From Mugil cephalus (lineage: Eukaryota; Chordata; Actinopteri; Mugiliformes; Mugilidae), in contig NC_061778.1 of NCBI RefSeq assembly GCF_022458985.1, positions 7,023,501 to 7,087,500 on the forward strand: a DNA stretch of 64,000 nucleotides, given 5' to 3'. The notes under the pieces are model-generated. The model saw only the letters and a list, made by a program, of their open reading frames with translations, did not search any database and had not been told where the DNA came from. Every line of letters starts with the position of its first letter. The first letter of the stretch is position 1. A program made the translations under genes and the position numbers. This document shows positions 16,495 through 40,400 of this stretch, one piece after another.

Positions 16495-16588
16495 CAATAA
16501 GAGGAAGAATAGTTTTGCTTTTCTATTAGGATGTTTGGAATTCAGACATATTTTAAGAGAAAAGAAATGCATTGAATATTGAATTCAT

Positions 16589-19273: not shown

Positions 19274-22200
19274 TTACCATGACCTGGGTGACTGAAAACC
19301 TTCACAGACTTGGTGTGAAAGTTTCAAGGTCTCAAGCTCATTCCTTGTTTCCTCTTCCTTGTCCATGAGCAGTTGTTTTTCACTTTTTTCATGTGCCAGT
19401 TGAATCCTTGATTCATCCAATTGTTTTTCCATATTGAACCTCAGTGATTGCTCTTTTAAATATTTAGCCCTCTGCTCACCTGAGTAGACCTTTGCTCCAT
19501 GGAGCTCCTTGGTCAAATGTCCTACCTGGTTCCAGAGAGTCTTGTTTTTAAGTTGCTCTGATTCTAGGTTTGCATAGATCTGAGAAATGTGTTCCTTCTG
19601 AAAAAGACTGATCTCCTCTACTCTTTGGAGTTGAGCATTCATCTCATTGGCATCTTTGAGCAGGGCCTCCAGGTTCTTTGTTTCTTCAACTTGCTGTTGA
19701 AGTGTGATTCTCAACAATTGCTCTTCTTCCAGATGCTTTTCTCTCTCCTTGTTGAACTGACTCGTCCGCTCCTCAGAATGAACAAGTTTCTTTGTTAAAT
19801 CTTTTAACTTGATCCAGAGTGACTTGTTTTCTTTCTCCATTGATTCCAGTTTGGCAGAAAGCTGAGAGACATGTTCTTCTGACAAGAAAATGGTCTCCTC
19901 TCCTCTGCTGTTCATCTCCTCAGCATCTTTGAGCTGGGCTTCCAGTTGTCCAATTGGTTCAACTTGTTGTTGAAATTTGATCCGCAATGCTTTTTCCGTT
20001 AAATATTTAGCCCTTTGCTCCTCTGAGTAGACCTTTGCTCCATGGAGCTCATTTGTCAAATATTCTACGTGATTATAGAGAGTCTTGTTTTTACTTTGCT
20101 CCAAATCTAGGTTTCCGGAGAGCTGAGAAATGTGTTTCTTTTGAAACAGACTGATCTCTTTTACTCTATGGAATTGAGCATTCATCTCCTTGGCATCTTT
20201 GAGTTGGGCCTTCAGCTCTCTCGTTTGTTCAACTTGTTGCTGAAGTGTGATTCTCAGTGTTTGCTCTTCTTCCAGACATTTTTCTCTCTCTTTGTGGAGC
20301 TGACTTTTCTGCTCCTCAGAGTGAACATTTGCCCTTTCAAGCTTGTCTTTTAAACCTTCAAACTTGATCTGGAGGGACTGGTTTTCTTTCTCCTTTGATT
20401 CTAGTTTTGCATAAAGCTGAGAGACCTGTTCTTCCTCAAGGAAATGGTCTCCTCTGCTCTTTGGAGCAGAACATCAAGCTCCTCAGTATCTTTGAGCTGG
20501 GCCTCTAATTTCTTTGTTTCTTCAACCACTTGTTGAAGTTTGATCCGCAATGATTGCTCTGTTAAATATTTAGCCCTCTGCTCCTCTGAGTAGTCCTTAG
20601 CTCCCTGGAGCTCATTGGTCAAATAGTCTATGTGGCTCCAGAGAGTCTTGTTTTCATATTTCTGTGATTGTAGGTTTGTAGAGAGCTGAGAGATGCATTC
20701 CTTCTGAAACAGACTGGTCTCCTCTACTCTTTGGAGTTTAGCATTCTTCTCATTAGCATCTTTGACTTGGGCCTCCAGGTTCTTTGTTTCGTCAATTTGC
20801 TGTTGAAGTGTGATTCTCAACATTTGCTCTTCTTCCAGATATTTTTCTCTCTCTTTATGGAACTGACTTTTCTGCTCCTCAGCGTGGACATTTGCTCTTT
20901 CAAGTTTGTCTGTTAAATCCTCTATGTGGACCCAGAAGGACTGGTTTTCGTTCTCCTTTGACTCCAGTTTTGCGGAAAGGTGACAGACCTGTTCCTCCTG
21001 CAAAAAAATGGTCTCCCCTGCTCTTTGGAGTAGAGGGTCAAGCTCCTCAACAACTTTGAGCTGGACCTCCAATTTCTTTGTTTCTTCAACTTGTTGCTGA
21101 AGTTTGAACCGCAATGATTGCTCTTCATCCAGACATTTTTCTCTCTCTTTGTGGAACAGTTTTTTCTGTTCCTCAGCATGGACATTAGCCTTTTCAAGCT
21201 TGTCTTTTAAATCTTCAAACTTGATCAAGAGGGACTGGTTTTCGTTCTCCTTTGACTCCAGTTTTGCAGAAAGCTGACAGACCTGTTCTTCCTGCAAGAA
21301 AATGGTCTCCCCTGCTCTTTGGAGTAAGGGGTCAAGCTCCTCAACAACTTTGAGCTGGGCCTCCAATTTCTTTGTTTCTTTAACTTGTTGTTGAAGTTTG
21401 ACCCGCAATGATTGCTCTTCATCCAGACATTTTTCTCTCTCTTTGTGGAACTGTTTTTTCTGTTCCTCAGTGTGGACATTTGCCCTTTCCAGTTTTTCTT
21501 TTAAATCCTCTACCTGGATCCAGAGGGACTGGTTTTCATTCTCTTTTGATTCTAGTTTTGCAGAAAGTTGAGAGACCTGTTCTTCCTGCGAGAAAATGGT
21601 CTCAAATCCTGTTTGGAGTAGAGTCTCAAACTCCTCAGCATCTTTGAGCTGGGCCTCCAATTTCTTTGTTTCTTCAACTTGCTTTTGGAGTTTGATCCGC
21701 AATGATTGCTCTTCTTTCAGACATTTTTCTCTCTCTTTGTGGAACTGACTTTTCTGCTCCTCAGAGTGGACATTTGCCCTTTCAAGCTTGTCTTTTAAAT
21801 CTTCAAACTTGATCAAGAGGGACTGGTTTTCGTTCTCCTTTGATTCCAGTTTTGCAGAAAGCTGACAGACCTGTGCTTCCTGCAAGAAAATGGCCTCCAC
21901 TCCTCTTTGGAGTAGAGCCTCAAGCTCCCCAACATCTTTGAGCTGGGCCTCCAATTTCTTTGTTTCTTCAACTTGTTGTTGAAGTTTGACCCGCAATGAT
22001 TGCTCTTCTTCCAGACATTTTTCTCTCTCTTTGTGGAACTGACATTTCTGCTCCTCAGAGTGGACATTTGCCCTTTCCAGTTTTTCTTTTAAATCCTCTA
22101 CCTGGATCCAGAGGGACTGGTTTTCATTCTCCTTTGATTCTAGTTTTGCAGAAAGTTGAGAGACCTGTTCTTCCTGCGAGAAAATGGTCTCAAATCCTGT

Positions 22201-23655
22201 TTGAAGTAGAGTCTCAAACTCCTCAGCATCTTTGAGCTGGGCCTCCAATTTCTTTGTTTCTTCAACTTGCTTTTGGAGTTTGATCCGCAATGATTGCTCT
22301 TCTTCCAGACATTTTTCTCTCTCTTTGTGGAACTGACTTTTCTGCTCCTCAGAGTGAACATTTGCCCTTTCAAGCTTGTCTTTTAAATCTTCAAACTTGA
22401 TCAAGAGGGACTGGTTTTCGTTCTCCTTTGATTCCAGTTTTGCAGAAAGCTGACAGACCTGTGCTTCCTGCAAGAAAATGGCCTCCACTCCTCTTTGGAG
22501 TAGAGTCTCAAGCTCCTCAACATCTTTGAGCTGGGCCTCCAATTTCTTTGTTTCTTCAACTTGTTGTTGAAGTTTGATCCGCAATGATTGCTCTTCTTCC
22601 AGACATTTTTCTCTCTCTTTGTGGAACTGTTTTTTCTGTTCCTCAGAGTGGACATTTGCCCTTTCAAGCTTGTCTTTTAAACCTTCAAACTTGATCCAGA
22701 GGGACTGGTTTTCATTCTCCTTTGATTCCAGTTTTGCAGAAAGCTGAGACATCTCTTTTTCCTGCAAGAAAATGGTCTCCTCTGCTCTTTGGAGTAGAGC
22801 ATCAAGCCCCTCAACATCTTTGAGCTGGGCCTCCAAGTTTTTTGTTTCTTCAACCACTTGTTGAAGTTTGATCCGCAATGATTTCTCTTTTAAATATTTG
22901 GCCCTTTGCTCCTCTGAGTAGACCTTTGCTCCGTGGAGCTCCTTGATCAAATATTCTACAAACAGACTGGTCTCCTCCACTTTTTGGTGTTGAACATTCA
23001 TCTCATTAGCCTCCAATGTCTTTGTTTCTTCAACTTGTTGTTGAAGTCTTCTCAATATTCGCTCTTCTTGTTCTAGGCATCTTTCTCTCTCTTTGTGGAA
23101 CAGACTGATCTGCTCCTCAAACTGGATATTTGCTATTACAAGGTCGTCTGTTAAATCCTCTTCGTGGATCCACAGTGACTTTCCGTTCTCCTCTGATTCC
23201 AGAGAGCCCTTTTCTTTCTGCAAGAAAATGGTCTCCTCTACTCTTTGAAGATGAGCATTCATCTCATTGGCATCTTTGAGTAGGGCCTCCTGATTATTTG
23301 TTTCTTCAACTTGTTGTTGAAGTCTGATTCTCAGCATTTGCTCTTCTTCTTTGAAACATCTTTGTCTCTCTTTGTGGAACAGACAGCGGAGCTCCTCAGA
23401 GCAGAGATTTGCTCTTTTGAGCTGGTCTGTCAATTCTTCTATCTGAATCCAGAGTGACTGTTTTTCATTCTCTACTGATTCCAGTTTTGCAGAAAGCTGA
23501 GTGACCTGTTCTTCTTGTGAGAAAATGGTCTCCTCAAGCTCCTGGATATGTTCACGTTGGGTGTTCTTCTCATTCCAGCCAAAAATATGGCAAAACAGCC
23601 TCCTGGCCCAGTTGATGGTGCCCAGGGCTGACACAGTGCACAGTTTTAAAGACAT
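19274..23655 (-). CDS. cc1: long repetitive coiled-coil protein, one frame break
   Basis: The gene starts at the ATG at 23655 (MSLKLCTVSALGTINWARRL). After a non-helical N-terminus of about 35 residues it is almost wholly charged coiled coil. The core is a 98-residue repeat (QLSAKLESKENENQSL...KLERANVHSEEQK...KCLEEEQSLRIKLQQQVEETKKLEAQLKD) whose DNA copies lie exactly 294 bp apart at seven anchor points, 20966-22730. More diverged repeats fill both ends, and the C-terminus is CEGFQSPRSW. The frame is open to about 20435, where cc1 reads TTCCTCAAG against TTCCCTCAAG in both cc2 copies. That one missing base separates a 1084-residue part from the remainder. Counting it, the coding length is 1460 codons. 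I do not recognise the family; golgin- or trichohyalin-like names would reflect composition only. It could act as a filament or scaffold protein, but the sequence does not show which. Confidence 0.75.
20966..22730 (-). repeat. 294-bp coding tandem repeats in cc1
   Basis: The motif AGTTTTGC(A/G)GAAA recurs at 20966, 21260, 21554, 21848, 22142, 22436 and 22730, always 294 bp apart. Types alternate: 21554 and 22142 are one type (AAAGTTGAGAG), 21848 and 22436 another (AAAGCTGACAG with TGTGCTTCC). The middle is thus a 588-bp dimer present twice. Confidence 0.9.
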
Positions 23656-23883
23656 AACTTACCGTTTCCGGAAGATACTCGTACTTATTCACTTGTTGGA
23701 AACAAAATGACGCGACTGAACTCAATTCAATTGAATTGAACTGAAATAAACTAAACTCGGCTAAACTAACTAGCTAAACTAAACTCAGCTAAACTAACGC
23801 AGCTAAACTCCACTTAACTCAACTCAATTAAACTCCACTCAACTCAACTAAACCACTGTACTCGACTCAACTGGAGCTACCTG
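23656..23883 (-). other. ATG-free 5' leader of degenerate pentamers (cc1)
   Basis: From the TATA box to the start codon the minus strand has no ATG. Much of it (about 23709-23880) is made of GAGTT/TAGTT-like pentamers. cc2 has the same leader (about 40890-41070). A leader lacking upstream ATGs supports the chosen start. Confidence 0.5.
23657..23662 (-). promoter_or_regulatory. Consensus 5' splice site directly before the cc1 start
   Basis: The minus strand reads ACG-GTAAGT-T-ATG, a strong donor consensus one base before the start codon. The same occurs in cc2 at 40835-40840. If used, the ATG would be intronic in that transcript form; if not, G at -3 gives a fair initiation context. Confidence 0.35.
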
Positions 23884-23900
23884 TTTATAAAAAGACGTCA
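23884..23900 (-). promoter_or_regulatory. TATA box with adjacent CRE-like site (cc1 promoter)
   Basis: The minus strand reads TGACGTCTTTTTATAAACAG, that is, a seven-of-eight match to the CRE (TGACGTCA) four bases before TATAAA. The start codon lies about 230 bases downstream. The equivalent cc2 site (41072-41088) keeps the TATA but reads TGACATC at the CRE. Confidence 0.5.
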
Positions 23901-23954
23901 TGGTGTTGCCTTTGATCTTTGATGCCTTTGATCTTGTCATATGATGCCTTTGAT

Positions 23955-24040
23955 CTAAATGTCACATGATGTCAACAAGATGACATCGTGATGTCACATG
24001 ATGATGCCGTGATGTCATCATGATGACATCATCATCATGA
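23955..24040. promoter_or_regulatory. Cluster of CRE-like TGACATCA words and a 20-bp palindrome
   Basis: TGACATC/GATGTCA words recur several times, including a perfect 20-bp palindrome GATGTCATCATGATGACATC at 24011-24030. cc2 keeps a shorter version at about 41122-41172 with two central mismatches. ATF/CREB-family binding is a plausible reading, but low-complexity expansion could also produce it. Confidence 0.4.
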
Positions 24041-24045
24041 AAACA

Positions 24046-24540
24046 CCGATTTTGTTTGTTGATCAAGTTGATATGGCCCCTGCAATTAATGCCATTCTGT
24101 CAATTGTCACATATGCAGATTTTCCTTTGCTGTCACTCGTCTGCCATTGGAGAGTCATCGCCGAACCTCTTCAATGGACCACTGTCTGTTTCATTATGTA
24201 AACCTTGTGACATCACTGTATAGAATGCTGAATGCTGACACTGTATAGAATGCTATTTATTTAAAGAGAACTTAGAACTCTGTCTCTTGAGTCACTCTGA
24301 CTAACTTTTGTTTTTTATAGACACATTTAGGTTTGGAGTGTTGTTTTTTGATGTGTTTTGAGTTCAGATAAGGAGATGTGTTTTGTCTTTGTTAAACTTA
24401 ATCATTGAAAACAAGAAACTTTAACAAAAATCCTATCCAGTATGGTTTAATGTTGCTTCCCTCATCCTCTAGCAGAGCTAGACATAAGTTATTTTTCAAC
24501 CTCCTAGGTTGTGGTTCCTTCCTTTCTTTCTTTTGAGCAA
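24046..24540. other. Distal upstream region shared by cc1 and cc2
   Basis: It is nearly identical to 41210-41715. It has a direct repeat (CACTGTATAGAATGCT twice, near 24208 and 24238) and no coding sequence. Confidence 0.6.
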
Positions 24541-24965
24541 AAGGTAAAGCTGAGGGATCATATCTTTGAACATTTTTTGAACAGAGTAAGAATTCTGCTT
24601 TCCTTTATTTTGTCAAGCTTATTCCATAGTGTGGCACCATGAAAGCTATGCATCTGCTCATAGATTGGTGCATGCATTACCTTTATGGAAATAATGTTTA
24701 CATCTGAAATTATATACATCATCCTTTCCAATAAAAAGTTTTTAAATGTTTCCTGGAAGTACCTGTTTCTTTGCTTTGAATAATATTTGAGCAACTTAAA
24801 GCTGTAAATGTCTGTTTGTTTCAAGGTTAGTTTCAACCTTAAAAACATTTGTGTGTTCACGGTATCCGCTGAACACACCCACGTGTCGGCTGATACTGAT
24901 ACAAGTAAAAAATGGAAATACCAGACCGAGATATTGGCCTGATATATCAGCTGATCCCTACTGGA
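24541..24965 (-). mobile_element. Transposon-derived segment with TAGGGATCAGCTGATATATC end
   Basis: Read on the minus strand from about 24961 it starts TAGGGATCAGCTGATATATC, typical of a fish DNA-transposon terminus, and continues through GGCCAATATCTCGGT. The rest (24560-24840) may be LINE-derived (minus strand HGATLWNKLDKIKES). The same block precedes G at 42000-42397. Confidence 0.4.
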
Positions 24966-24973
24966 CAAACAAT

Positions 24974-25680
24974 ACAAACGACCTTTACAAGGAGGCCCAA
25001 AGTTGTCTTCACCTGCTGAGATGACTGAGGTCCTCTGGATTGTGCAGGTCACTATTCAAGACTTTCTATGACCCCGTGGTGTCTCCTGCCATCCTGTATG
25101 CAGTGGTCTCCTGGAGCAGGGGGGGCTCAGAGAGGGACTGGAAGAGACTTAACAAGCCGGCTCTGTCCCGGACTGCTCTCTGGAGTACATCAATCAGGTG
25201 GGTGAGGAGGACATTGGTCAAGCTGACATCAATCATGGACAGCAGCTCCTTGAGCAGCAGACTGCTGCATCCACACTGCAAGAAGGAACGCTACCACAGG
25301 TCCTTCATCCCAACAACACCAGCCTGAGTTAACAATAACTCACACCTTAGACTTGGCTTTGTTTTCATTTTATTACAGAAATTTCTTGGAACAAATCTGC
25401 TTTTTTGCACAGCCTTATGTTGCACAAACTACTACCTCACTGTCTACATTTTATAATCATTCAATGTTATTATATTATCAATTTTTAGCTATTTTAATTC
25501 CCATTCCACAGTTAAAAAAATTTCTTTACATTTCTTTTTTCGTTTATTTATTTTCCAGAGTGTTTTCATTTCACAATTTGTATTGTTGTTGTTTTGTATA
25601 TATTCTTGTCTAATTCCATGATGCTGTGACAAGGAAATTTCCCATACGTGGATAAATAAACAGTGTCTTATATCTTGTGT
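24974..25680 (+). mobile_element. LINE 3' end (reverse transcriptase C-terminus and tail), copy 1
   Basis: The plus strand encodes LFKTFYDPVVSPAILYAVVSW and RLLHPHCKKERYHRSFIPT, typical of the C-terminus of a fish non-LTR retrotransposon, followed by an AT-rich tail with AAGGAAATTTCCCAT and GGATAAATAAACAGTGTC. It is 5'-truncated. Copies at 29590-30300 and 42404-42902 lie in the same position beside F and G, so it was duplicated with the array. Confidence 0.75.
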
Positions 25681-25939
25681 CTCATGTTAAAATGCTTAAT
25701 ATTTTAAACCGTCTTCCTCTGTAGCCTACAACAAAAATCCATTGTTTTAATAACCACGTACATTTTACATAAAAAACAAAACATCAGATATTCTCCCTCT
25801 GTTCATTAATATATATTGAATGGAAGAATAGTTTTGCTTTTCTGTTAGGATGTTTTAAATTCAGACATATTTAAGAGAACTTGAAAAGAAGTGCATTGAA
25901 TGTTGAATTCATTTAGTTCTTCTTAAGAGATGAAACCTA

Positions 25940-26890
25940 TCATTTCTTTGGGATGATTCTTCTGCGGAACTGCTTCAGAACGCTTTCTCTCATGTCTTTA
26001 GCTCTTAGACAGTAAATAAGTGGATTGATCATGGGAGGCCCAAGGCTATACAGCATGATGATTACAATTCTCACATCAGCATTAAATTTAATACCGACAT
26101 TGCTGGCTAAATAAACAAAACACCTCGGCAGATAATAGAGGGAGATTATTATCAGCTGGGTGCTGCAAGTGGACAGAGATTTTAGGCAACCTTGTGAATT
26201 TGCTGTCTTACTTACTGCAACAATTATAGAAGTATATGAGAATATTATAAATGCAAGAGGTCCAAGTAAGACAACCATTGCAGTTAGAAAAGCAGGGAAG
26301 CCATAAGGGGCCCTGTCAGTGCATGCCAGCATTGTTATGCCAATATGATCACAGTAACAGTGATTGATTATGTTGGAAGCACAGTAAGGAAGAGGATACG
26401 CCCTAATTACGAACATTAAACAAGGTGCACAGGCAGTAGTCCATGCACTAATACTGAGAATGAGGATAGTGGAGTTTGTCAGAACATTTGGATATCTGAG
26501 AGGATGGCAGATAGCCATATACCTGTCTAAAGCCATGAGGAACAGAATAAAAGAATTTACTGTGCCAAGATAGTGAACAAAATACATTTGGATGAAGCAA
26601 GCATTGAAAGAAATGGCCCCTGAGTGAAACCAGTACTTACTGATGATCTTCGGTAAAGTGGTCGTGCTAAAGAGAATGTCACATACACTCAGATTTAGAA
26701 TGATATAATACATCGGCTTATGAAGGCTACGGTTGGTTGCAAATAAAAAAAGAACAGTGGCATTTCCTACAACAGTCAAGAAATAAACAAAGAACAATAC
26801 AACTGAAGCGAGGCCGTAGTACTCTGGATGAAGTCCAGGGAATCCAGTCAGGATGAATTCAGTCACACTGCTGTGATTTCCCTCTGACAT
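25940..26890 (-). CDS. Olfactory receptor E (array member, shortened C-terminus)
   Basis: An intact seven-helix OR of 316 residues starting at the ATG at 26890 (MSEGNHSSVTEF). It has the same hallmarks as D (MALDRYMAICHPLRYP, CYCDHIGITMLAC, KSLSTCSTQL, INPLIYCLRAKDM). It ends RRRIIPKK, nine residues before D, F and G, because the codon reading GGA in the others is TGA here. Helix 4/loop 2 reads TTACAPCLMFVIRAYP, distinct from the other three. Its upstream flank lacks about 100 bp present in D and F, which may remove promoter sequence. It is probably still a functional receptor, since the cytoplasmic tail is little conserved in ORs. Confidence 0.92.
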   Translation of the reverse strand: MSEGNHSSVTEFILTGFPGLHPEYYGLASVVLFFVYFLTVVGNATVLFLFATNRSLHKPMYYIILNLSVCDILFSTTTLPKIISKYWFHSGAISFNACFIQMYFVHYLGTVNSFILFLMALDRYMAICHPLRYPNVLTNSTILILSISAWTTACAPCLMFVIRAYPLPYCASNIINHCYCDHIGITMLACTDRAPYGFPAFLTAMVVLLGPLAFIIFSYTSIIVAVSKTANSQGCLKSLSTCSTQLIIISLYYLPRCFVYLASNVGIKFNADVRIVIIMLYSLGPPMINPLIYCLRAKDMRESVLKQFRRRIIPKK

Positions 26891-27510
26891 GATGGAGCAA
26901 TTTCCTTCAAACAATGTTAACCGTACAACACATTAGATACCATTATATATTTACTATATCCTGCAATATTGTACAATCATTTTGATAATTTTTGATACAA
27001 ATCTTGTAACTAAGAGTATGACTGTATTAATTTGTAGAGACCTTAAAAGTCTTGAATCATAAATGATTTTCCTGAAAAGAGAATTAAAGCATGTTTAAGG
27101 CTATAGTTATCTTAGTTTCCCTTTACCTTTCTAAGCCAAGGAGACTGCCTGCTCTGCTGAGCCACCTGCTGTTTCACTTCTTAAAAAGACTTCTTGTCGC
27201 CCACTTTGTGTGGAAGGTGTGCTATCCATCCTTCTTGTATTCTCTACATCCCCTTCTCATAACTCTCAGAACTCAGAAATACCTTGAGGGAATTTCATAA
27301 GATTTGTTTCACCCCTGTGGGGTGTTTTTCAGACGTCAATGCTCAGCATGGATTGGACGCCATGGTCGAGTGCATGGTGGCTCATACACTGATCAGGAAT
27401 TGCATTATGACCACCTTCCTAATAACAACTACAAAGGATCGGATCTATCTCTTGATACCAGCCAGGGCATCCTTAACTGCAGATTCTTCCAATTATTTTG
27501 TATCTTTCCA
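26891..27510. repeat. Duplicated OR 5' flank (E copy)
   Basis: It matches the D and F flanks, except that the segment after ACATTAGATA (about 17612-17710 in D) is missing. Confidence 0.7.
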
Positions 27511-27872
27511 AAATAATAATAATAAATAATAATAATAATAATAATAATAAAAATAATGCATTGGTTTTATATTGTGCTTTTCCAGATGCTCAAAGCACTT
27601 ACAATTGTTTGCATTATACATTCGCACACACAGTCACACCCTGGTGATGGTGAAATACCTCAGTAGTCACAGCTGCCCTGGGGCAGGCTGACAGAAATGT
27701 AGCAGCCAGCCTCCAACCACCACCAACATCACTCACTCGCAATCATACGCCAGGGATCATACACCTAGAGGCTGGGTGTCTTGCCCAAGGACACAACGGA
27801 CAGAATAGGGATAGGGCGGAAACGCCAACCTTTCGGTTATTGGACGACCGCTCTACCTACTGAGCTACTAAT
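27511..27872 (-). mobile_element. tRNA-derived SINE, nearly complete
   Basis: On the minus strand it starts TAGCTCAGTAGGTAGAGCGG (A-box-like), followed by CCGAAAGGTTGGCGTTTCC (B-box-like), a body with CCTTGGGCAAGACACCCAGC and CCATCACCAGGGTGTGACTG, and an (ATT)n tail. This is the order of a tRNA-type SINE. The copies by D and F are truncated. Confidence 0.8.
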
Positions 27873-28275
27873 AGTTGCTAATGATGACTCCTGTTATGGT
27901 ACCCAGGAACAGAGCAGCCTGTTCCGCAAAGAGTGAGCTAAATATTTAAAAGAGCAAATATTATAGATCAAACTACGGCAAAATGTGGAAGACACAAGAC
28001 AGTGAAAGACCAATACTTGCACGTTTTTGCCTATATTCTTGAAAAAACCATATAACCTTCTAGAACGGAGGAAAACCTCGAGTCCTCTCGAATTTCAACT
28101 TGACTTCCACCTGTTAGACTGTTAGAACGGTATAGCTGGCACTTGTGTCACAGTCTGTTAATCCGTTGAAAGCTGGCGAGTCTTCTCCAGGGGACCTGTT
28201 GGGGGATTCTCACCTGCCAGACATCGTTTCTTCTTATAAGTGCTGGCAAAAGGGCTTTTTTTAATGATTGCAAAA
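27873..28275. repeat. Array flank retained by E
   Basis: It matches 33413-33770 next to cc2 (CTTCTAGAACGGAGGAAAACC, then CCAGGGGACCTGTTGGGGGA). Homology stops after TTTTTTTAATGATTGCA at about 28275. Beyond this point F continues toward its coiled-coil gene, whereas E does not. Confidence 0.7.
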
Positions 28276-28694
28276 ATACTGCACTGCAAAAATGAGCAAT
28301 ATAACCAAGTCTTCCAATCTTGTATCCAGCCAAAAAGTCTTTATGATCTTGTTTTGAGAGCAATATACTATGCAAGCACAGAATGTGTAAGATTATTATT
28401 CTTGTTCTGAGAATATTTGTCTTTTTAGTTCTTAGTTAGTAAGTACATCCTAAAACTATATATTTTTCACAGAAAGTAAGCCACATTATGTCAGATTTCT
28501 CTTTCATGACTACTTCCTAGCTTAGAAAACTTGTTTCAAGACCTCCCAATAAGCATTCACACACACTCTGGTCACAGTTGTAACATGTTTATTCACATTC
28601 ATTCCAATGTTTAAGTACAGCAACATCACCAAGATAATATTTTGTCAGAACATACGCAGTAACCTGTCACGTACTGTATATACTTGAGAATAAG

Positions 28695-29256
28695 TCACTT
28701 TACTTTGACTGTGTGTTGAATGCCATAAATCCCCCCAAAATCTCCCATCTTTGTGTTAACATTCTCCATATTTGCTACTTCTGAGACAGGACCCAATTCT
28801 TTCTCATGAAAAAAAGAAATCGGATGCTCCGTACCCATTTCATTTTGACAGCATTGAAAAAGGTCATTTTGTTGCACAAATGACTTACAGACATTTCTGA
28901 AGTTCAATTCAGATGACCACTGTTTGAAAAAACAGTGCTTTGACTCAAATCTCATGCACATGTGTCTTATCATAGGGCCCAGGGAGATGCAACAGGTAAT
29001 GTTGCTTAGGAATTACATTATTCTCAGGAAAACGTTGCTTAAACTGTTTCAGATTCAGTTCACTCATACTTCTCAGTCTTAGTACAGTCTGCACAGATAA
29101 AACAGGAGCAAAAAGTACCTGAACTATCTCAATTAAGTCCAAAACAAACTGAACATACTCATTTTTCTCTATAGTGTTCAGCAGAAAAGGCATGATCTTC
29201 AGCAATATCAGTATTTGCTCTGAGTATTGTTTAAGTTTGTTATCATTTGATGCCAA
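28695..29256 (-). pseudogene. Remnant of a transposon-associated protein ('MRFESKH' type)
   Basis: Two adjoining minus-strand frames read FPENNVIPKQHYLLHLPGP and MIRHMCMRFESKHCFFKQWS...NVCKSF. This order (PKQHY, then MRFESKH, then FKN-like) is one I associate with multicopy, apparently transposon-derived proteins in fish that start with C2H2 fingers. The copy is broken and lacks its N-terminal part. It lies in the only stretch of the array not shared with the other units. Confidence 0.45.
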
Positions 29257-29261
29257 GGTAC

Positions 29262-29585
29262 TGAAACTTATAGGGCAGGGTAAAAGTATGACTTCAGGGT
29301 GAGGTACAGTAGTACTAACAGCGTGGGTATAACAAGTTCACTGACAGACCATGGAGCTGAACCCGCCGCTCACTACCCCCAGAGGACCCGAGCACAGCTG
29401 TCCCAAAGGTGCCATAGCAAAATAATACTTCATGTAAAATATAAAGTAAAATGATGACATAAAATAAAAATCTGTATTTAAACAAACAATGCATGTCTGC
29501 GATCATTTATTATAACGTTATAATAATATTATAATACACAATAAAGCTATGGTTGTAATCTACAACTGGGTTACAGACACACAGC
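29262..29585. other. Short spacer
   Basis: AT-rich, with no gene or repeat that I can name. Confidence 0.4.
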
Positions 29586-29589
29586 AGAA

Positions 29590-30300: not shown

Positions 30301-30544
30301 TATCTTGTGTCTCATGTTAAAATGCTTAATATTTTAAACCGTCTTCCTCTGTAGACTACAACAAAAATCCATTGCTTTAATAACCATGTACATTTTACAT
30401 AAAAACAAAACATCGGACATTCTCATTCTGTTTATTAACATATATATTGAATGGAAGAATAGTTTTGCTTTTCTATTAGGATGTTTGAAATTCAGACATA
30501 TTTAAAGAGAACTTGAAAAGAAGTACATTGAATATTGAATTCAT

Positions 30545-31522
30545 TTAACTCTTCTTAAGAGCTGAAACCTGTCCTTTCTTTGGGATGATTCTTCTGCGGA
30601 ACTGCTTCAGAAAGCTTTCTCTCATGTCTTTAGCTCTTAGACAGTAAATAAGTGGATTGATCATGGGAGGCCCAAGGCTATAGAGCATGATGATTACAAT
30701 TCTCACATCAGCATTAAATGTAATACCGACATTGCTGGCTAAATAAACAAAACACCTCGGCAGATAATAGAGGGAGATTATTATCAGCTGGGTGCTGCAA
30801 GTGGACAGAGATTTTAGGCAACCTTGTGAATGTGCTGTCTTATTTACTGCAACAATTATAGAAATATATGAGAATATTATAAATGCAAGAGGTCCAAGTA
30901 AGACAACCATTGCAATTACAAAAGCAGGGAAGCCATAAGGGGCCCTGTCAGTGCATGCCAGCATTGTTATACCAATATGATCACAGTAACAGTGATTGAT
31001 TATGTTGGAGGCACAGTAAGGAAGAGGATACGCCACAATTACTAACCTTAAACAAGGTGCACTGGCAATAGTCCATGCACTAATACTGAGAATGAGGATA
31101 GTGGAGTTTGTCAGAACATTTGGATATCTGAGAGGATGGCAGATAGCCATATACCTGTCTAAAGCCATGAGGAACAGAATAAAAGAATTTACTGTGCTGA
31201 GATAGTGAACAAAATACATTTGGATGAAGCAAGCATTGAAAGAAATGGCCCCTGAGTGAAACCAGTACTTACTGATGATCTTCGGTAAAGTGGTCGTGCT
31301 AAAGAGAATGTCACATACACTCAGATTTAGAATGATATAATACATCGGCTTATGAAGGCTACGGTTGGTTGCAAATAAAAAAAGAACAGTGGCATTTCCT
31401 ACAACAGTCAAGAAATACACAAAGAACAATACAACTGAAGCAAGGCCTTGGTACTCTGGATGAAGTCCAGGGAATCCAGTCAGGATGAATTCAGTGACAC
31501 TGCTGTGATTTCCCTCTGACAT
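30545..31522 (-). CDS. Olfactory receptor F (array member)
   Basis: An intact OR of 325 residues from the ATG at 31522. It differs from D at about 16 positions, mostly outside the conserved motifs: YQG for YYG near residue 25, N for T at 97, YLST for CLGT at 107-110, APCLRL for ALCSRL in helix 4, and VI...V for LT...T in helix 5. All hallmark motifs are present (LDRYMAICHPLRYP, HCYCDHIGI, NPLIYCLRAKDM). Its 5' flank matches D apart from a LINE-containing insertion at 32211-33002. Odorant-sensing GPCR; the ligand is unknown. Confidence 0.94.
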   Translation of the reverse strand: MSEGNHSSVTEFILTGFPGLHPEYQGLASVVLFFVYFLTVVGNATVLFLFATNRSLHKPMYYIILNLSVCDILFSTTTLPKIISKYWFHSGAISFNACFIQMYFVHYLSTVNSFILFLMALDRYMAICHPLRYPNVLTNSTILILSISAWTIASAPCLRLVIVAYPLPYCASNIINHCYCDHIGITMLACTDRAPYGFPAFVIAMVVLLGPLAFIIFSYISIIVAVNKTAHSQGCLKSLSTCSTQLIIISLYYLPRCFVYLASNVGITFNADVRIVIIMLYSLGPPMINPLIYCLRAKDMRESFLKQFRRRIIPKKGQVSALKKS

Positions 31523-32210
31523 GATGGAGCAATTTCCTTCAAACAATGTTAACCGTACAACACATTAGATAAAAAAGCAGCAGTACTATAATGTCATTTT
31601 GTGAGAATAACGATTACTTGTCTTTGCTCTGTGAACTATTCCATTCTATTTAATTGATGAACCATCGTATATTTACTATATCCTGCAATATTATACAATC
31701 ATTTTAGTAATTTTTCATACAAATCTCGTAACTAAGAGTATGTCTATATTAAATTGTAGAGACCTTAAAAGTCTTAAATCATAAATGATTTTCCTGAAAA
31801 GAAAATTAAAGCATGTTTAAGGCTATAGTTATCTTCGTTTCCCAGTACCTTTCTAAGCCAAGGAGGTTGTCTACTCTGCTGAGCCGCCTGCTGTTTCACT
31901 TCTTAAAAAGACTTCTTGTAGCTCATTTTGCGAGGAAGGTGTGCTATCCACCCTTCTTGTATTCTATGTCAAGCCATCCCATTCTTATAACTCTCAGAAC
32001 TCAGAAATACCTTGAGGGAATTTCACAAGATTTTTTTCACCCCTATGGGGTGTTTTTCAGACATCAGTGCTCGGCATTGGTTGGTTACAACACACGCCAT
32101 GCTCAAGCACATGGTGGCTCATACACTGATCAGGCATTGCATTATGACCACCTTCCTAATATACAAAACAACCACAAAAGATCAGGTCGTTCTAAAAATG
32201 CCTGGATCGG
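31523..32210. repeat. Duplicated OR 5' flank (F copy)
   Basis: It matches 17567-18250 closely. The homology resumes at about 33003 after the inserted LINE sequence. Confidence 0.8.
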
Positions 32211-33002
32211 ACTTCTAGTTATGCTATGTCAGCAGGAGCTTAGTCTTCAGGTGGGACACCCAAATTGGACAGGTCTGAAGGTGGAGGCCTGACAAAGTGC
32301 AATCCACTTCTCCAGGTTGGCGGTGGACACATAGCTAAAGACCCATTTCAATGAAGAAAGCATTGTTACTATAAGCACAGAAAAATGTGCTGGAGCATGA
32401 TGTGCACACATGCCCCCTTCATATTTCTGACTGCCCCCTCATACATGCATGCCTAGAACCGGGTTTTCAGAAAGGCAGTTTTCCACCCTGCATGAATAGT
32501 GCTTTGATTACTTTATTGCCAAAACCAGGTAAACCTTCTAACAAGTATGAAAACATGAGTCCAATAACTTTGTTAAACTCTGACCTTAAGATACTATATA
32601 AACTGTTGGCAACATGCTTACAAAAGTTAATGCCAAATATTGCTAATAGAGATCAAAATGGTTTACAGCAGGAAGGCAGGGTTTTCACAACCCTGAATGT
32701 TCAGAGTGCTGAACATTATTCATACAAAGAAATGTCGGATGCAGCACTCTTATCATTAGAGGCAGAAAATGCCTTTGATAGGGTCGAATGGCCTTATCTT
32801 TTCAATGTTTTAGAAAGGTTTGGAATTGGAAGTAATTTCATAAAATGGGTTAGGATATATTATATGAAAATTCTACTGCAGAAACCTTGACAAACAGAAA
32901 TATTTCAAAACCAATTCATATAAGTAAAGGGTACTGGCAAGGTTGTCCACTATCTCCTTTATTCTTCATACTAGCAATTGAACCTCTCGCAAGATCCCCT
33001 CT
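32211..33002 (+). mobile_element. L1/Tx1-type LINE fragment inserted in the F unit
   Basis: From 32450 the plus strand encodes reverse-transcriptase motifs: ALITLLPKPGKP, SPITLLNSDLKILYKLLATCLQKL, AENAFDRVEWPYLFNVLERFG and, after a stop at 32888, [17 protein letters not shown]. It is truncated at both ends and dead. The D and E units lack it, and CTGGATC occurs on both sides, consistent with a short target duplication. It therefore inserted after the D/F duplication or was lost from D. Confidence 0.8.
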
Positions 33003-33095
33003 GGATCAGTCCTAACCAATCTCTTGATACTAGTCAGGACATCCTTAACTGCAGATTCTGAATTCTCTTCCATTTTATCCTGGGGATCTTTCCAA

Positions 33096-33413
33096 AATAA
33101 TAATAATAATAATGCATTGGTCTTATATTGTGCATTTCCAGAAGCTCAAAGCGCTTACAGTTGTATGCATTATACATTCGCACACACAGTGACACCCTGG
33201 TGATGGTGAACTACCTCAGTAGTCACAGCAGCCCTGGGGCAGGCTGACGGAAATGTGGCAGCCAGCCTCCGACCACCACCAACATCACTCACTCGCAATC
33301 ATACGCCAGGGATCATACACCTAGAGGCTGGGTGTCTTGCCCAAGGACACAACGGACAGAATAGGAATAGGGCGGAAACGCCAACCTTTCGGTTATTGGA
33401 CGACCGCTCTACC
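33096..33413 (-). mobile_element. tRNA-derived SINE (F copy, head truncated)
   Basis: It matches the copy at 27511-27872 from the (ATT)n tail to GACCGCTCTACC. The last 60 or so bases, including the A-box region, are deleted. Confidence 0.75.
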
Positions 33414-34465
33414 AGCCTGTTACGCAAAGAGAGAGCTTAATATTTAAAAGAGCAAACATTATTGATCAAACTACAGCAAAATGTGGAAGACACAAGACAG
33501 TGAAAGACCCATACCTGCATGTTTTTGCTTATGTTTTTGAAAAACCATTTGACCTTCTAGAACGGAGGAAAACCTCGAGTCCTCTTGAATTTCAACTTGA
33601 CTTTCACCTGATAGACTGTTAGAACGGTATAGCTGGCACTTGTGTCACAGTCTGTTAATCTGTTGAAAGTTGGCGAGTCTTCTCCAGGGGACCTGTTGGG
33701 GGATTCTCACCTGCCAGACATCCTTTCTTCTTATAAGTGCTGGCAAAAGGGCTTTTTTTTAATGATTGCATCAATACTGTACAAATGTTACATGTGTAAC
33801 ATTACATTGTTAAACAGTTAAATGACTCGTCTGCTTATTTTTATTTATTTATTTTATTACATCACACTCATCACATATTACAAGCATGTCTTTGGAGGGT
33901 GGGAGGAACCGAAGTACTCGGGGAAAACCCACATAGACACAGGGAGAACATGCAAACTCCCCCCAGAAAGGAGTCGGACTTGAGCCCGGATCTTCTCACT
34001 GGGAGGCATCAGTGCTAACCACCATGCCACTGTGCCACTCCATTCCTTCTATCATTTTATCTTTGTTACATGAGCTGGTAGATGAAGAACTCCTGGTGTC
34101 TAATAATAAGCTGTACAACTCTGAATAAAGGCAACTGGACTTGTAGAATTTCTTGAAGATGTTTTGCCACTCTTCTTCAGTTCTGATGGACTAGTGGAAA
34201 TTGAGGTTTAAACAGGAAAAACTCTGTGGATACACCCACCAGACCAGACACGGGTGTCACTATTTCCATAATGGCTGGGTACTTACCTGTTGTTGAGAGG
34301 GGGGGACTGTGTGCCTAGGCTGCTTACTCTATGAATGGAGCTTTACAAGGCTATTGTCAGTGGGAGCCCACAGGGGGGTTAGAAGTCAAAACTGAATTGT
34401 AAATAGATGGTAAATGAAATCTCAGTCCACCACCTCTGCTACTCCTTTTATTCAATGCCTTTGGA
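33414..34465. repeat. Array flank and 3' region of cc2
   Basis: The part to 33770 matches 27873-28275. The part 33780-34465 matches 18600-19273 with very few differences and includes the interspersed repeat at 33845-34050. No gene. Confidence 0.75.
34447..34452 (-). terminator. Polyadenylation signal of cc2
   Basis: AATAAA on the minus strand just after the cc2 stop codon, in the same place as in cc1. Confidence 0.5.
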
Positions 34466-37400
34466 TTACCATGACCTGGGTGACTGAAAACCTTCACAGA
34501 CTTGGTGTGAAAGTTTCAAGGTCTCAAGCTCATTCCTTGTTTCCTCTTCCTTGTCCATGAGCAGTTGTTTTTCACTTTTTTCATGTGCCAGTTCTATCCT
34601 TGATTCATCCAATTGTTTTTCCATATTGAACCTCAGTGATTGCTCTTTTAAATATTTAGCCCTCTGCTCACCTGAGTAGACCTTTGCTCCATGGAGCTCC
34701 TTGGTCAAATGTCCTACCTGGTTCCAGAGAGTCTTGTTTTTAAGTTGCTCTGATTCTAGGTTTGCATAGATCTGAGAAATGTGTTCCTTCTGAAAAAAGA
34801 CTGATCTCCTCTACTCTTTGGAGTGAGCATTCATCTCATTGGCATCTTTGAGCAGGGCCTCCAGGTTCTTTGTTTCTTCAACTTGCTGTTGAAGTGTGAT
34901 TCTCAACAATTGCTCTTCTTCCAGATGCTTTTCTCTCTCCTTGTTGAACTGACTCGTCCGCTCCTCAGAATGAACAAGTTTCTTTTTAAATCTTTTAACT
35001 TGATCCAGAGTGACTTGTTTTCTTTCTCCATTGATTCCAGTTTGGCAGAAAGCTGAGAGACTGTTCTTCTGACAAGAAAATGGTCTCCTCTCCTCTGCTG
35101 TTCATCTCCTCAGCATCTTTGAGCTGGGCTTCCAGTTGTCCAATTGGTTCAACTTGTTGTTGAAATTTGATCCGCAATGCTTTTTCCGTTAAATATTTAG
35201 CCCTTTGCTCCTCTGAGTAGACTTTGCTCCATGGAGCTCATTTGTCAAATATTCTACGTGATTATAGAGAGTCTTGTTTTTACTTTGCTCCAAATCTAGG
35301 TTTCCGGAGAGCTGAGAAATGTGTTTCTTTTGAAACAGACTGATCTCTTTTACTCTATGGAATTGAGCATTCATCTCCTTGGCATCTTTGAGTTGGGCCT
35401 TCAGCTCTCTCGTTTGTTCAACTTGTTGCTGAAGTGTGATTCTCAGTGTTTGCTCTTCTTCCAGACATTTTTCTCTCTCTTTGTGGAGCTGACTTTTCTG
35501 CTCCTCAGAGTGAACATTTGCCCTTTCAAGCTTGTCTTTTAAACCTTCAAACTTGATCTGGAGGGACTGGTTTTCTTTCTCCTTTGATTCTAGTTTTGCA
35601 TAAAGCTGAGAGACCTGTTCTTCCCTCAAGGAAATGGTCTCCTCTGCTCTTTGGAGCAGAACATCAAGCTCCTCAGTATCTTTGAGCTGGGCCTCTAATT
35701 TCTTTGTTTCTTCAACCACTTGTTGAAGTTTGATCCGCAATGATTGCTCTGTTAAATATTTAGCCCTCTGCTCCTCTGAGTAGTCCTTAGCTCCCTGGAG
35801 CTCATTGGTCAAATAGTCTATGTGGCTCCAGAGAGTCTTGTTTTCATATTTCTGTGATTGTAGGTTTGTAGAGAGCTGAGAGATGCATTCCTTCTGAAAC
35901 GACTGGTCTCCTCTACTCTTTGGAGTTTAGCATTCTTCTCATTAGCATCTTTGACTTGGGCCTCCAGGTTCTTTGTTTCGTCGATTTGCTGTTGAAGTGT
36001 GATTCTCAACAATTGCTCTTCTTCCAGATGCTTTTCTCTCTCCTTGTTGAACTGACTCGTCCGCTCCTCAGAATGAACAAGTTTCTTTGTTAAATCTTTT
36101 AACTTGATCCAGAGTGACTTGTTTTCTTTCTCCATTGATTCCAGTTTGGCAGAAAGCTGAGAGACATGTTCTTCTGACAAGAAAATGGTCTCCTCTCCTC
36201 TGCTGTTCATCTCCTCAGCATCTTTGAGCTGGGCTTCCAGTTGTCCAATTGGTTCAACTTGTTGTTGAAATTTGATCCGCAATGCTTTTTTCCGTTAAAT
36301 ATTTAGCCCTTTGCTCCTCTGAGTAGACCTTTGCTCCATGGAGCTCATTTGTCAAATATTCTACGTGATTATAGAGAGTCTTGTTTTTACTTTGCTCCAA
36401 ATCTAGGTTTCCGGAGAGCTGAGAAATGTGTTTCTTTTGAAACAGACTGATCTCTTTTACTCTATGGAATTGAGCATTCATCTCCTTGGCATCTTTGAGT
36501 TGGGCCTTCAGCTCTCTCGTTTGTTCAACTTGTTGCTGAAGTGTGATTCTCAGTGTTTGCTCTTCTTCCAGACATTTTTCTCTCTCTTTGTGGAGCTGAC
36601 TTTTCTGCTCCTCAGAGTGAACATTTGCCCTTTCAAGCTTGTCTTTTAAACCTTCAAACTTGATCTGGAGGGACTGGTTTTCTTTCTCCTTTGATTCTAG
36701 TTTTGCATGAAGCTGAGAGACCTGTTCTTCCCTCAAGGAAATGGTCTCCTCTGCTCTTTGGAGCAGAACATCAAGCTCCTCAGTATCTTTGAGCTGGGCC
36801 TCTAATTTCTTTGTTTCTTCAACCACTTGTTGAAGTTTGATCCGCAATGATTGCTCTGTTAAATATTTAGCCCTCTGCTCCTCTGAGTAGTCCTTAGCTC
36901 CCTGGAGCTCATTGGTCAAATAGTCTATGTGGCTCCAGAGAGTCTTGTTTTCATATTTCTGTGATTGTAGGTTTGTAGAGAGCTGAGAGATGCATTCCTT
37001 CTGAAACAGACTGGTCTCCTCTACTCTTTGGAGTTTAGCATTCTTCTCATTAGCATCTTTGACTTGGGCCTCCAGGTTCTTTGTTTCGTCGATTTGCTGT
37101 TGAAGTGTGATTCTCAACATTTGCTCTTCTTCCAGATGTTTTTCTCTCTCTTTATGGAACTGACTTTTCTGCTCCTCTGAGTGGACATTTGCTCTTTCAA
37201 GCTTATCTTTTAAACCTTCAAAATTGATCCAGAGGGACTGGTTTTCATTTTTCTTTGATTCAAGTTTTGCAGAAAGCTGACAGACCTGTTCTTCCTGCAA
37301 GAAAATGGTCTCCCCTGCTCTTTGGAGTAGAGGGTCAAGCTCCTCAACAACTTTGAGCTGGGCCTCCAATTTCTGTGTGTCTTCAACTTGTTTCTGAAGT

Positions 37401-40400
37401 TTGATCCGCAATGATTGCTCTACTTCCAGACAGTTTTCTCTCTCTTTGTGGAACTGAAATTTCTGCTCCTCAGAGTGGACATTAGCCCTTTCCAGTTTTT
37501 CTTTTAAGTCCTCTACCTGGATCCAGAGGGACTGGTTTTCGTTCTCCTTTGATTCTAGTTTTGCAGAAAATTGAGAGACCTGTTCTTCCTGCGAGAAAAT
37601 GGTTTCAAATCCTGTTTGGAGTAGCGTCTCAAACTCCTCAGCATCTTTGAGCCGGGCCTCCAATTTCTTTGTTTGTTCAACTTGTTGTTGGAGTTTGATC
37701 CGCAATGATCGCTCATCTTCCAGACATTTTTCTCTCTCTTTGTGGAACTGACTTTTCTGCTCCTCAGAGTGAACATTTGCCCTTTCAAGCTTGTCTTTTA
37801 AATCTTCAAACTTGATCAAGAGGGACTGGTTTTCGTTCTCCTTTGACTCCAGTTTTGCAGAAAGCTGACAGACCTGTGCTTCCTGCAAGAAAATGGCCTC
37901 CACTCCTCTTTGGAGTAGAGTCTCAAGCTCCTCAACATCTTTGAGCTGGGCCTCCAATTTCTTTGTTTCTTCAACTTGTTGTTGAAGTTTGATCCGCAAT
38001 GATTGCTCTTCTTCCAGACATTTTTCTCTCTCTTTGTGGAACTGTTTTTTCTGTTCCTCAGAGTGGACATTTGCCCTTTCAAGCTTGTCTTTTAAACCTT
38101 CAGACTTGATCCAGAGGGACTGGTTTTCATTCTCCTTAGATTCAAGTTTTGCAGAAAGCTGACAGACCTGTTCTTCCTGCAAGAAAATGGTCTCCCCTGC
38201 TCTTTGGAGTAGAGGGTCAAGCTCCTCAACAACTTTGAGCTGGGCCTCCAATTTCTGTGTGTCTTCAACTTGTTTCTGAAGTTTGATCCGCAATGATTGC
38301 TCTACTTCCAGACAGTTTTCTCTCTCTTTGTGGAACTGACATTTCTGCTCCTCAGAGTGGACATTAGCCCTTTCCAGTTTTTCTTTTAAGTCCTCTACCT
38401 GGATCCAGAGGGACTGGTTTTCGTTCTCCTTTGATTCTAGTTTTGCAGAAAGTTGAGAGACCTGTTCTTCCTGCGAGAAAATGGTCTCAAATCCTGTTTG
38501 GAGTAGAGTCTCAAACTCCTCAGCATCTTTAAGCCGGGCCTCCAATTTCTTTGCTTGTTCAACTTGTTGTTTGAGTTTGATCCGCAATGATTGTTCTTCT
38601 TCCAGACATTTTTCTCTCTCTTTGTGGAACTGACTTTCTGCTCCTCAGAGTGGACATTTGCCCTTTCAAGCTTGTCTTTTAAATCTTCAAACTTGATCAA
38701 GAGGGACTGGTTTTCGTTCTCCTTTGACTCCAGTTTTGCAGAAAGCTGACAGACCTGTGCTTCCTGCAAGAAAATGGCCTCCACTCCTCTTTGGAGTAGA
38801 GTCTCAAGCTCCTCAACATCTTTGAGCTGGGCCTCCAATTTCTTTGTTTCTTCAACTTGTTGTTGAAGTTTGATCCGCAATGATTGCTCTTCTTCCAGAC
38901 ATTTTTCTCTCTCTTTGTGGAACTGTTTTTTCTGTTCCTCAGAGTGGACATTTGCCCTTTCAAGCTTGTCTTTTAAACCTTCAGACTTGATCCAGAGGGA
39001 CTGGTTTTCATTCTCCTTAGATTCAAGTTTTGCAGAAAGCTGACAGACCTGTTCTTCCTGCAAGAAAATGGTCTCCCCTGCTCTTTGGAGTAGAGGGTCA
39101 AGCTCCTCAACAACTTTGAGCTGGGCCTCCAATTTCTGTGTGTCTTCAACTTGTTTCTGAAGTTTGATCCGCAATGATTGCTCTACTTCCAGACAGTTTT
39201 CTCTCTCTTTGTGGAACTGACATTTCTGCTCCTCAGAGTGGACATTAGCCCTTTCCAGTTTTTCTTTTAAGTCCTCTACCTGGATCCAGAGGGACTGGTT
39301 TTCGTTCTCCTTTGATTCTAGTTTTGCAGAAAGTTGAGAGACCTGTTCTTCCTGCGAGAAAATGGTCTCAAATCCTGTTTGGAGTAGAGTCTCAAACTCC
39401 TCAGCATCTTTGAGCCGGGCCTCCAATTTCTTTGCTTGTTCAACTTGTTGTTTGAGTTTGATCCGCAATGATTGTTCTTCTTCCAGACATTTTTCTCTCT
39501 CTTTGTGGAACTGACTTTTCTGCTCCTCAGAGTGGACATTTGCCCTTTCAAGCTTGTCTTTTAAATCTTCAAACTTGATCAAGAGGGACTGGTTTTCGTT
39601 CTCCTTTGACTCCAGTTTTGCAGAAAGCTGACAGACCTGTGCTTCCTGCAAGAAAATGGCCTCCACTCCTCTTTGGAGTAGAGTCTCAAGCTCCTCAACA
39701 TCTTTGAGCTGGGCCTCCAATTTCTTTGTTTCTTCAACTTGTTGTTGAAGTTTGATCCGCAATGATTGCTCTTCTTCCAGACATTTTTCTCTCTCTTTGT
39801 GGAACTGTTTTTTCTGTTCCTCAGAGTGGACGTTTGCCCTTTCAAGCTTGTCTTTTAAACCTTCAAACTTGATCCAGAGGGACTGGTTTTCATTCTCCTT
39901 TGATTCCAGTTTTGCAGAAAGCTGAGACATCTCTTTTTCCTGCAAGAAAATGGTCTCCTCCGCTCTTTGGAGTAGAACATCAAGCCCCTCAACATCTTTG
40001 AGCTGGGTCTCCAAGTTTTTTGTTTCTTCAACCACTTGTTGAAGTTTGATCCGCAATGATTTCTCTTTTAAATATTTGGCCCTTTGCTCCTCTGAGTAGA
40101 CCTTTGCTCCGTGGAGCTCCTTGATCAAATATTCTACAAACAGACTGGTCTCCTCCACTTTTTGGTGTTGAACATTCATCTCATTAGCCTCCAATGTCTT
40201 TGTTTCTTCAACTTGTTGTTGAAGTCTTCTCAATATTCGCTCTTCTTGTTCTAGGCATCTTTCTCTCTCTTTGTGGAACAGACTGATCTGCTCCTCAAAC
40301 TGGATATTTGCCATTACAAGGTCGTCTGTTAAATCCTCTTCGTGGATCCACAGTGACTTTTCGTTCTCCTCTGATGCCAGAGAGACCTGTTCTTCCTGCA

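Follow-up and report, generated by a model that had tools for sequence, protein, structure and literature searches.

A 64,000-nucleotide stretch of the Mugil cephalus genome (C9:7023501-7087500, hereafter the window) carries two minus-strand genes, cc1 (23655 down to 19274) and cc2 (40833 down to 34466), whose predicted coiled-coil products are built largely from a unit of 294 base pairs (bp), arranged in a different higher-order pattern in each gene. We consider it likely that cc1 and cc2 are recent tandem paralogs in an olfactory-receptor cluster, and that they belong to a dispersed family in which a conserved head is followed by a helical rod of repeats of about 98 residues, the rod having grown by the exchange of units without any need for a unit to measure 14 x 7 residues. 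The two genes share the same first 40 residues (NWARRLFCHIFGWNEKN), encoded on the minus strand at 23536..23655 in cc1 and at 40714..40833 in cc2.

Unit arrays and the wider gene family

The spacing of 294 bp in both genes, which a preliminary description of the window had pointed out, was recovered by Tandem Repeats Finder as a period of 294, with 7.3 copies at 20757-22889 in cc1 and 10.3 copies at 37054-40067 in cc2. The profile search with nhmmer delimited seven core units in cc1 (22782..20725) and ten in cc2 (39960..37022); the interval given for the repeats in the preliminary description (20966..39908) cuts into both arrays. Sorted by pairwise identity, the units fall into types A, B and C plus two outer types, X and Y. 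Their order is C-A-B-A-B-X-Y in cc1 and C-(A-B-C)x3 in cc2, where the final unit is a hybrid.

The 588-bp dimer and the 882-bp trimer proposed earlier are real. Within the core array of cc1 (20725..22782, minus strand), the two A-B dimers (21901..22488 and 21313..21900) differ at 18 of 588 positions when compared in phase (units 2-3 with 4-5), against 57 of 588 out of phase (units 2-3 with 3-4). Within that of cc2 (37022..39960, minus strand), the first two A-B-C trimers, one of 882 bp at 38785..39666 and the other of 881 bp at 37904..38784 with a 293-bp unit 5, differ in phase (units 2-4 with 5-7) at a single position in 881 plus one 1-bp gap, against 96 of 881 out of phase (units 2-4 with 3-5). 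The claim of a threefold trimer holds fully for these two copies, but the third (37022..37903) is less exact: 11 of 587 positions, plus a 1-bp gap, separate its A and B units from those of copy 2, and its final unit starts as C type and continues as Y type from about base 143, matching 284 of 294 positions as a C/Y hybrid, 254 as C and 270 as Y.

Phase was also recovered in a tree of all 17 core units, in which X and Y of cc1 were left unlabelled. Type A (five units) splits off with support of 95/98 and type B (five units) with 100/99, and both groups include units of cc1 and cc2. The clustering by phase that had been anticipated is therefore borne out for A and B, but not for type C, which is unsupported in this tree (36/25). 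Shuffled labels reached the observed value in 0, 2 and 1 of 500 cases for A, B and C, respectively. Diverged monomer types in a fixed order, with in-phase copies more alike than out-of-phase ones, characterise an intragenic higher-order repeat, and this is the arrangement found here.

Diverged units border both arrays, at spacings of 99, 90, 87 and 94 residues, among others. Four diverged units in the tail of cc2, together about 1107 bp long, have also been duplicated as a block and are present on the minus strand as copy A (35915..37021) and copy B (34813..35914), the latter with several 1-bp length differences. The tails of cc1 and cc2 hardly differ, nor do the next 0.7 kb or so on the 3' side; the 5' flanks, by contrast, are 93-96% identical (73.5% in one stretch of 150 columns), which suggests that the 3' half of the two genes was probably homogenised recently.

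A search of the genome from which the window comes (634.8 Mb, 24 contigs), the counts of which are lower bounds, revealed at least eight further copies. Four of them have long open frames: 1009 residues on C18, with four 98-residue core units, 852 on C7, 769 on C13 and 752 on C19. Relic copies lie at C18 14.43 Mb, on C22, on C3 and at C13 12.59 Mb. The N-terminal head is common to cc1, cc2 and the open copies on C18, C7 and C13, the five that were aligned; the match of our query to the C19 copy is restricted to the part behind the head. The 5' flank is also common to several copies, over about 730 bp between cc1 and C18, about 550 bp between cc1 and C7 and about 540 bp between C7 and C13, and retroposition is not favoured as their origin; the direct match between cc1 and C13 extends only about 140 bp upstream. 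The C19 relative (L039:5185-7443) has a different, acidic C-terminus and sits downstream of an open frame that resembles APBA but has no Pfam match at 0.01.

The paralogs have in common two unit types of old origin, L and S. In a tree of 55 units they split at 100/100, and the amplified copies (the like units of C7 and those of C13) group within each gene. Both of these genes have a 588-bp L-S dimer of their own, with an identity of 0.853 at a lag of 588 against 0.667 at a lag of 294 in C7, and of 0.899 against 0.645 in C13. The repeated block thus differs among the five genes: A-B in cc1, A-B-C in cc2, L-S in C7 and C13, and a 101-residue unit in C19. The blocks probably arose when units that paired out of alignment within a single open frame underwent unequal crossing-over or gene conversion, repeatedly and in several paralogs. 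Whole-unit homologous exchange would leave the reading frame intact and the helix locally in phase, whatever the length of the unit, and recombination between units would shorten rods as well as lengthen them.

The preliminary description saw rod length as the evolving trait. Length does vary among the paralogs, and the proposal stands to that extent, but not as regards a trait that is selected or variable in populations. Only tentatively, then, might these genes be regarded as coding sequence behaving like satellite DNA, in which at least five paralogs have each re-amplified a block of their own, of one to three units, and rod length evolves freely, possibly under selection, with register breaks tolerated. 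Unit number may, on the same tentative view, differ between individuals, because two blocks in the window are only about 0.1% apart. Centromeres and a small number of human genes are well-documented cases of block-wise growth of a satellite-like kind. Six long-frame paralogs in one genome, five of them with a repeated block of one, two or three units, offer a compact test set for the way in which unequal exchange builds proteins.

Frame breaks and coding character

Both window genes are interrupted, cc1 by one frame change near 20.44 kb and cc2 by several. The main open frame of cc1 (20401..23655, minus strand; 1084 residues from the ATG) covers the head, three diverged units, the seven core units and the first tail unit, its last residues lying past the frame change; the remainder of the tail, with L and S units and the C-terminus, is read in a different frame (19274..20473) down to the stop codon TAA at 19274-19276. 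In cc2, the first open frame (38437..40833; 798 residues from the ATG) ends with residues past a frame change in core unit 5, and a continuation in a different frame (36254..38644; 796 residues from stop to stop) is followed by shorter pieces down to 34466.

If these interruptions are real, cc1 and cc2 are pseudogenes decaying in an olfactory-receptor cluster that was duplicated, with unit patterns that would reflect neutral turnover without a product. The relic copies elsewhere in the genome fit this explanation, as does the ratio of nonsynonymous to synonymous substitution (dN/dS) between cc1 and cc2, which over 389 codons is 0.58 and not significantly below 1 (p = 0.35). The kind of difference found in the tails argues otherwise. 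Aligned over 1440 bases, the cc1 tail and cc2 tail B show 2 substitutions along with 10 length differences, of which nine measure 1 bp. The corresponding figures are 1 and 2 in 1027 for the cc1 tail and cc2 tail A, and 1 and 5 in 1024 for the two cc2 tails. A duplicated olfactory-receptor segment taken as a control (16503-18257 and 30453-32210), by comparison, has accumulated 73 substitutions against 2 length differences over 1752 bases (Fisher p = 1e-9 relative to the first of these tail pairs). Two further controls gave 48 substitutions and 1 length difference in 1075 (a second receptor pair) and 70 and 6 in 826 (the 5' flanks of cc1 and cc2). Since 1-bp differences are in excess without the substitutions that decay would have added, the frame breaks look like assembly errors in the form of uncorrected read errors. 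The 1-bp breaks are located in stretches possessing near-identical second copies, and errors may have escaped correction there because read mapping is ambiguous.

The relatives point in the same direction. Over the first 140 codons, dN/dS ranges from 0.17 to 0.64 in ten gene pairs, with cc2 and C18 the lowest. Significance was computed for three comparisons and two were significant, namely cc2 with C18 over these 140 codons (dN/dS 0.17, p = 1.4e-6) and C7 with C13 as a whole (57 differences at 436 synonymous sites and 142 at 1802 nonsynonymous ones, dN/dS 0.58, p = 0.001 by Fisher's test). The open frames on C18, C7, C13 and C19, together with dN below dS, support the earlier statement that the repeats would form part of a coding sequence, even though cc1 and cc2 are themselves frame-broken. 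We therefore regard decay of the two window genes as possible but doubtful. The breaks may also serve as a warning that repeat genes of this kind can be miscalled as pseudogenes in assemblies.

It is rather unlikely that the near-identical copies (trimers 1 and 2 of cc2, tail blocks A and B) arose as artefacts of assembly and that the true arrays are shorter. The closeness of these copies, with 1 substitution in 881 bases for the trimers and 1 in 1024 for the tail blocks, would be expected of such an artefact, and the 1-bp breaks fall where near-identical copies exist. However, substitutions do separate trimer copy 3 (11 of 587) and the two cc1 dimers (18 of 588), and C7 and C13 display the same kind of pattern with more divergence, so that the phenomenon does not depend on those copies alone.

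Unit length, register and fold

The preliminary description derived from the unit length of 98 residues, as exactly 14 heptads, that monomers could be added or removed while keeping the coiled-coil register. We scored heptads with an approximate version of the MTIDK propensity table of COILS, in which a few zero-like entries were raised, and the scores are approximate. The predictions support a coiled-coil character. The core of cc1 keeps a single register throughout, including the unit borders, at shift penalties of 6 and above, while at 5 most core units exhibit opposing shifts; in the C13 array, register shifts are present at a penalty of 6 and gone at 8.

A model with two cancelling shifts was compared with a continuous register in 29 distinct units from five genes, using 1000 simulated perfect heptad units as the null. 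The two shifts exceeded the 99% level of this null (9.02) in 23 of the 29 units, with two more at the limit and four below, and in 20 of 26 when three 99-residue first units carrying an insertion were left out; this level may be too lenient, as simulated heptads outscore the real units (continuous-register score of 43 against about 23, with 9.8 for shuffles). In 17 of the 29 units, residue 43 or 44 is the site of one of the two best shifts. AlphaFold2, run on four cc1 units (392 residues, single sequence; mean predicted local distance difference test score 74.6, predicted template modelling score (pTM) 0.32), placed helices that cross the unit borders and stop at residues 42-46 in all four units. 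The 98-residue unit is thus probably not a run of 14 clean heptads, and its length still closes because the two register shifts cancel. The earlier description as exactly 14 heptads fits the homogenised core only, and even in that core it is at odds with the two-shift preference and the mid-unit helix break. What does agree with it is that neither the scoring of the cc1 core at penalties of 6 and above nor the AlphaFold2 model places a register break exactly at a unit border.

The helix break raises the question of whether the protein is a rod at all. It might instead fold back into a solenoid or bundle in which a turn at NVHSE closes the long helix formed by each 98-residue unit, and further units would contribute layers instead of length. 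The recurrent break at residues 42-46, the clustering of the best shift at residues 43 and 44, and the 94-residue unit of cc1 and C18, which by eye lost four residues at that turn, would all be accommodated by such a fold. The other 94-residue unit (C7 unit 5), however, lost its four residues elsewhere, the model comes from a single sequence with a pTM of only 0.32, and its best fold match has an E value of 0.35, which is not significant. Fold-back is a frequent outcome when an oligomeric coiled coil is modelled as a single chain, and we consider a layered structure unlikely.

As to divisibility by seven, the C19 paralog is the most informative. Its unit spacings are 98, 101, 101 and 101 residues (101 leaves a remainder of 3), identity between units 3 and 4 reaches 99.0%, and all three 101-residue units have a register shift that persists at a penalty of 10, the highest tried. 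Here, a helical repeat has multiplied despite a built-in register break, which speaks against a simple multiples-of-seven rule. The duplicated tail block of cc2, of about 1107 bp, corresponds to 369 residues, with a remainder of 5. Across the family, counting common ones once, there are 11 distinct changes of unit length from 98 (+1, -5, -31, -8, -11, -4, -4, -14, -11, -2 and +3), and one of the 11 is a multiple of seven, as by chance (binomial p = 1.0). Amplified unit lengths in the family are therefore not generally multiples of seven, and growth of the rod does not depend on blocks whose length is divisible by seven. The length of 98 residues would have been inherited from one ancestral unit, because homologous exchange preserves the local phase at any unit length; as the 98-residue units are homologous, their divisibility weighs as a single event with a chance of one in seven. 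Hence the least probable of the explanations is that growth was locked to the heptad, an uninterrupted 14-heptad unit being favoured as the only kind that can be added without breaking the coiled coil, since what fits it (a unit length of 98 residues, with few exceptions, both in the cores of cc1, cc2 and C18 and in the L-S repeats of C7 and C13, the single register of the cc1 core and the helix across unit borders) is outweighed by the C19 units, which largely refute it, and by the cc2 tail block, the length changes, the two-shift preference and the C13 shifts.

What the sequences establish about the product is its helical, repetitive nature and its conserved head. With less confidence than we place in growth by unit exchange, the product would most likely be a segmented coiled-coil tether that oligomerises and is anchored by its N-terminal head, whose reach would scale with the number of units and which would tolerate phase shifts.

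Several points weigh against the preferred reading of a coding family grown by unit exchange, in addition to the frame interruptions and the non-significant dN/dS between cc1 and cc2 given above. The C18 core has no higher-order phase, with identities of 0.885, 0.865 and 0.873 at lags of 294, 588 and 882. The C-terminal tail of cc1, cc2 and C18 is, by eye, missing from C7 and C13, both of which may be shortened. A splice-donor-like GTAAG(T/C) lies immediately 5' of the ATG in all five genes inspected (cc1, at 23656-23662; cc2; C18, L009; C7, L011; C13, L012), and the start site is uncertain for this reason. Crossing-over itself is something that we infer from the arrangement of the units, and the suggested function is drawn from the type of fold, with no convincing Pfam or PDB family behind it.

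Known systems and the locus

Searches for known relatives of the rod found no convincing Pfam or PDB family and no significant fold match. On whole-protein scores, G3P_antiterm reached 34.1 in cc1 and 29.1 in cc2 (cut-off 27) and DUF150_C reached 32.8 in one piece of cc2 (cut-off 26.3), because weak scores of the repeats add up. We rejected these and other Pfam names, as no stretch passes singly, all of them lie within the helical repeat, and the other paralogs are below the cut-off or match other families. A phmmer search of PDB had no match for cc1 at 0.001 or for C19 at 0.01. Foldseek returned nothing at 0.001, and its matches to doublet-microtubule proteins, F-BAR and others, with E values of 0.35 or worse, were not used. 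A search for relatives among viral contigs gave two pattern matches, neither confirmed.

Rods built of repeats, the length of which varies by whole repeats, are familiar from nebulin, spectrin and the streptococcal M protein, although the unit folds and the hosts differ from those of the cc family. Hornerin, which provides a further comparison, is an epidermal protein and not a coiled coil. The Olduvai domain of NBPF was not among the Pfam matches, in a library that should include an Olduvai model, and kinship with NBPF is judged here by that scan. In the one literature collection searched, no publication on the cc1/cc2 family was among those listed, and intragenic higher-order repeats did turn up. 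NBPF genes carry Olduvai (DUF1220) triplets organised as 3mer higher-order repeats (PMC9584774). As in cc2, three diverged unit types are co-amplified there as a trimer inside genes, with a copy number that varies by paralog, but the NBPF unit measures about 1.6 kb and comprises two exons with introns, whereas the cc unit has 294 bp in one open frame (PMC9584774). Hornerin likewise contains nested higher-order repeats within the gene, according to the same source, but with a primary unit of 39 bp in place of 294 bp (PMC9584774). Higher-order repeats inside genes are therefore already known, and what is found here is an unusually rich set of paralogs. A contrast is provided by the synaptonemal-complex proteins of Caenorhabditis, which are coiled-coil proteins of fast-evolving sequence, as the cc products are of coiled-coil type, but keep their coiled-coil length conserved and are depleted in indels (PMC8598163); the rod length of the cc family, on the contrary, differs widely between paralogs.

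The two cc genes are interspersed in a run of minus-strand olfactory-receptor-like frames, of which two were scanned and both match the Pfam olfactory receptor model. Four similar tandem receptor genes (16589-17590, 25940-26914, 30545-31546 and 43139-44116), in segments that are 93-96% identical, are interspersed with the coiled-coil genes. The C18 copy (L009, C18 about 6.956 Mb) is followed, about 2-3 kb downstream, by a relic of an olfactory-receptor gene belonging to the same class, and the two may have been duplicated as a pair. Despite this relic, a functional link to the receptors is not favoured, as the surroundings of the C7 and C13 copies, about 50 kb in each case, contain no match to three window receptors at 1e-5.

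Upstream of cc1, a TATAAA-like element on the minus strand (23884..23889) is situated 234 bp 5' of the ATG, and cc2 has one 244 bp 5' of its own; within 450 bp upstream of the C18, C7 and C13 copies, TATAAA and TATATA are absent. The GTAAG(T/C) next to the ATG suggests a candidate intron in the 5' untranslated region. Short tandem elements resembling TGATGTCATCA, which we take to be CRE/ATF-like, occur upstream of both window genes, at 23965-24032 and 41130-41161, and by eye also upstream of the C7 and C13 copies.

Elsewhere in the window, a 446-residue frame at 391-1731 has, by eye, an EGF-like stretch and a membrane span, with no Pfam match at 0.001 for its 433-residue form. A frame at 32375-32890 resembles, also by eye, a fragment of the reverse transcriptase of a long interspersed nuclear element (LINE).

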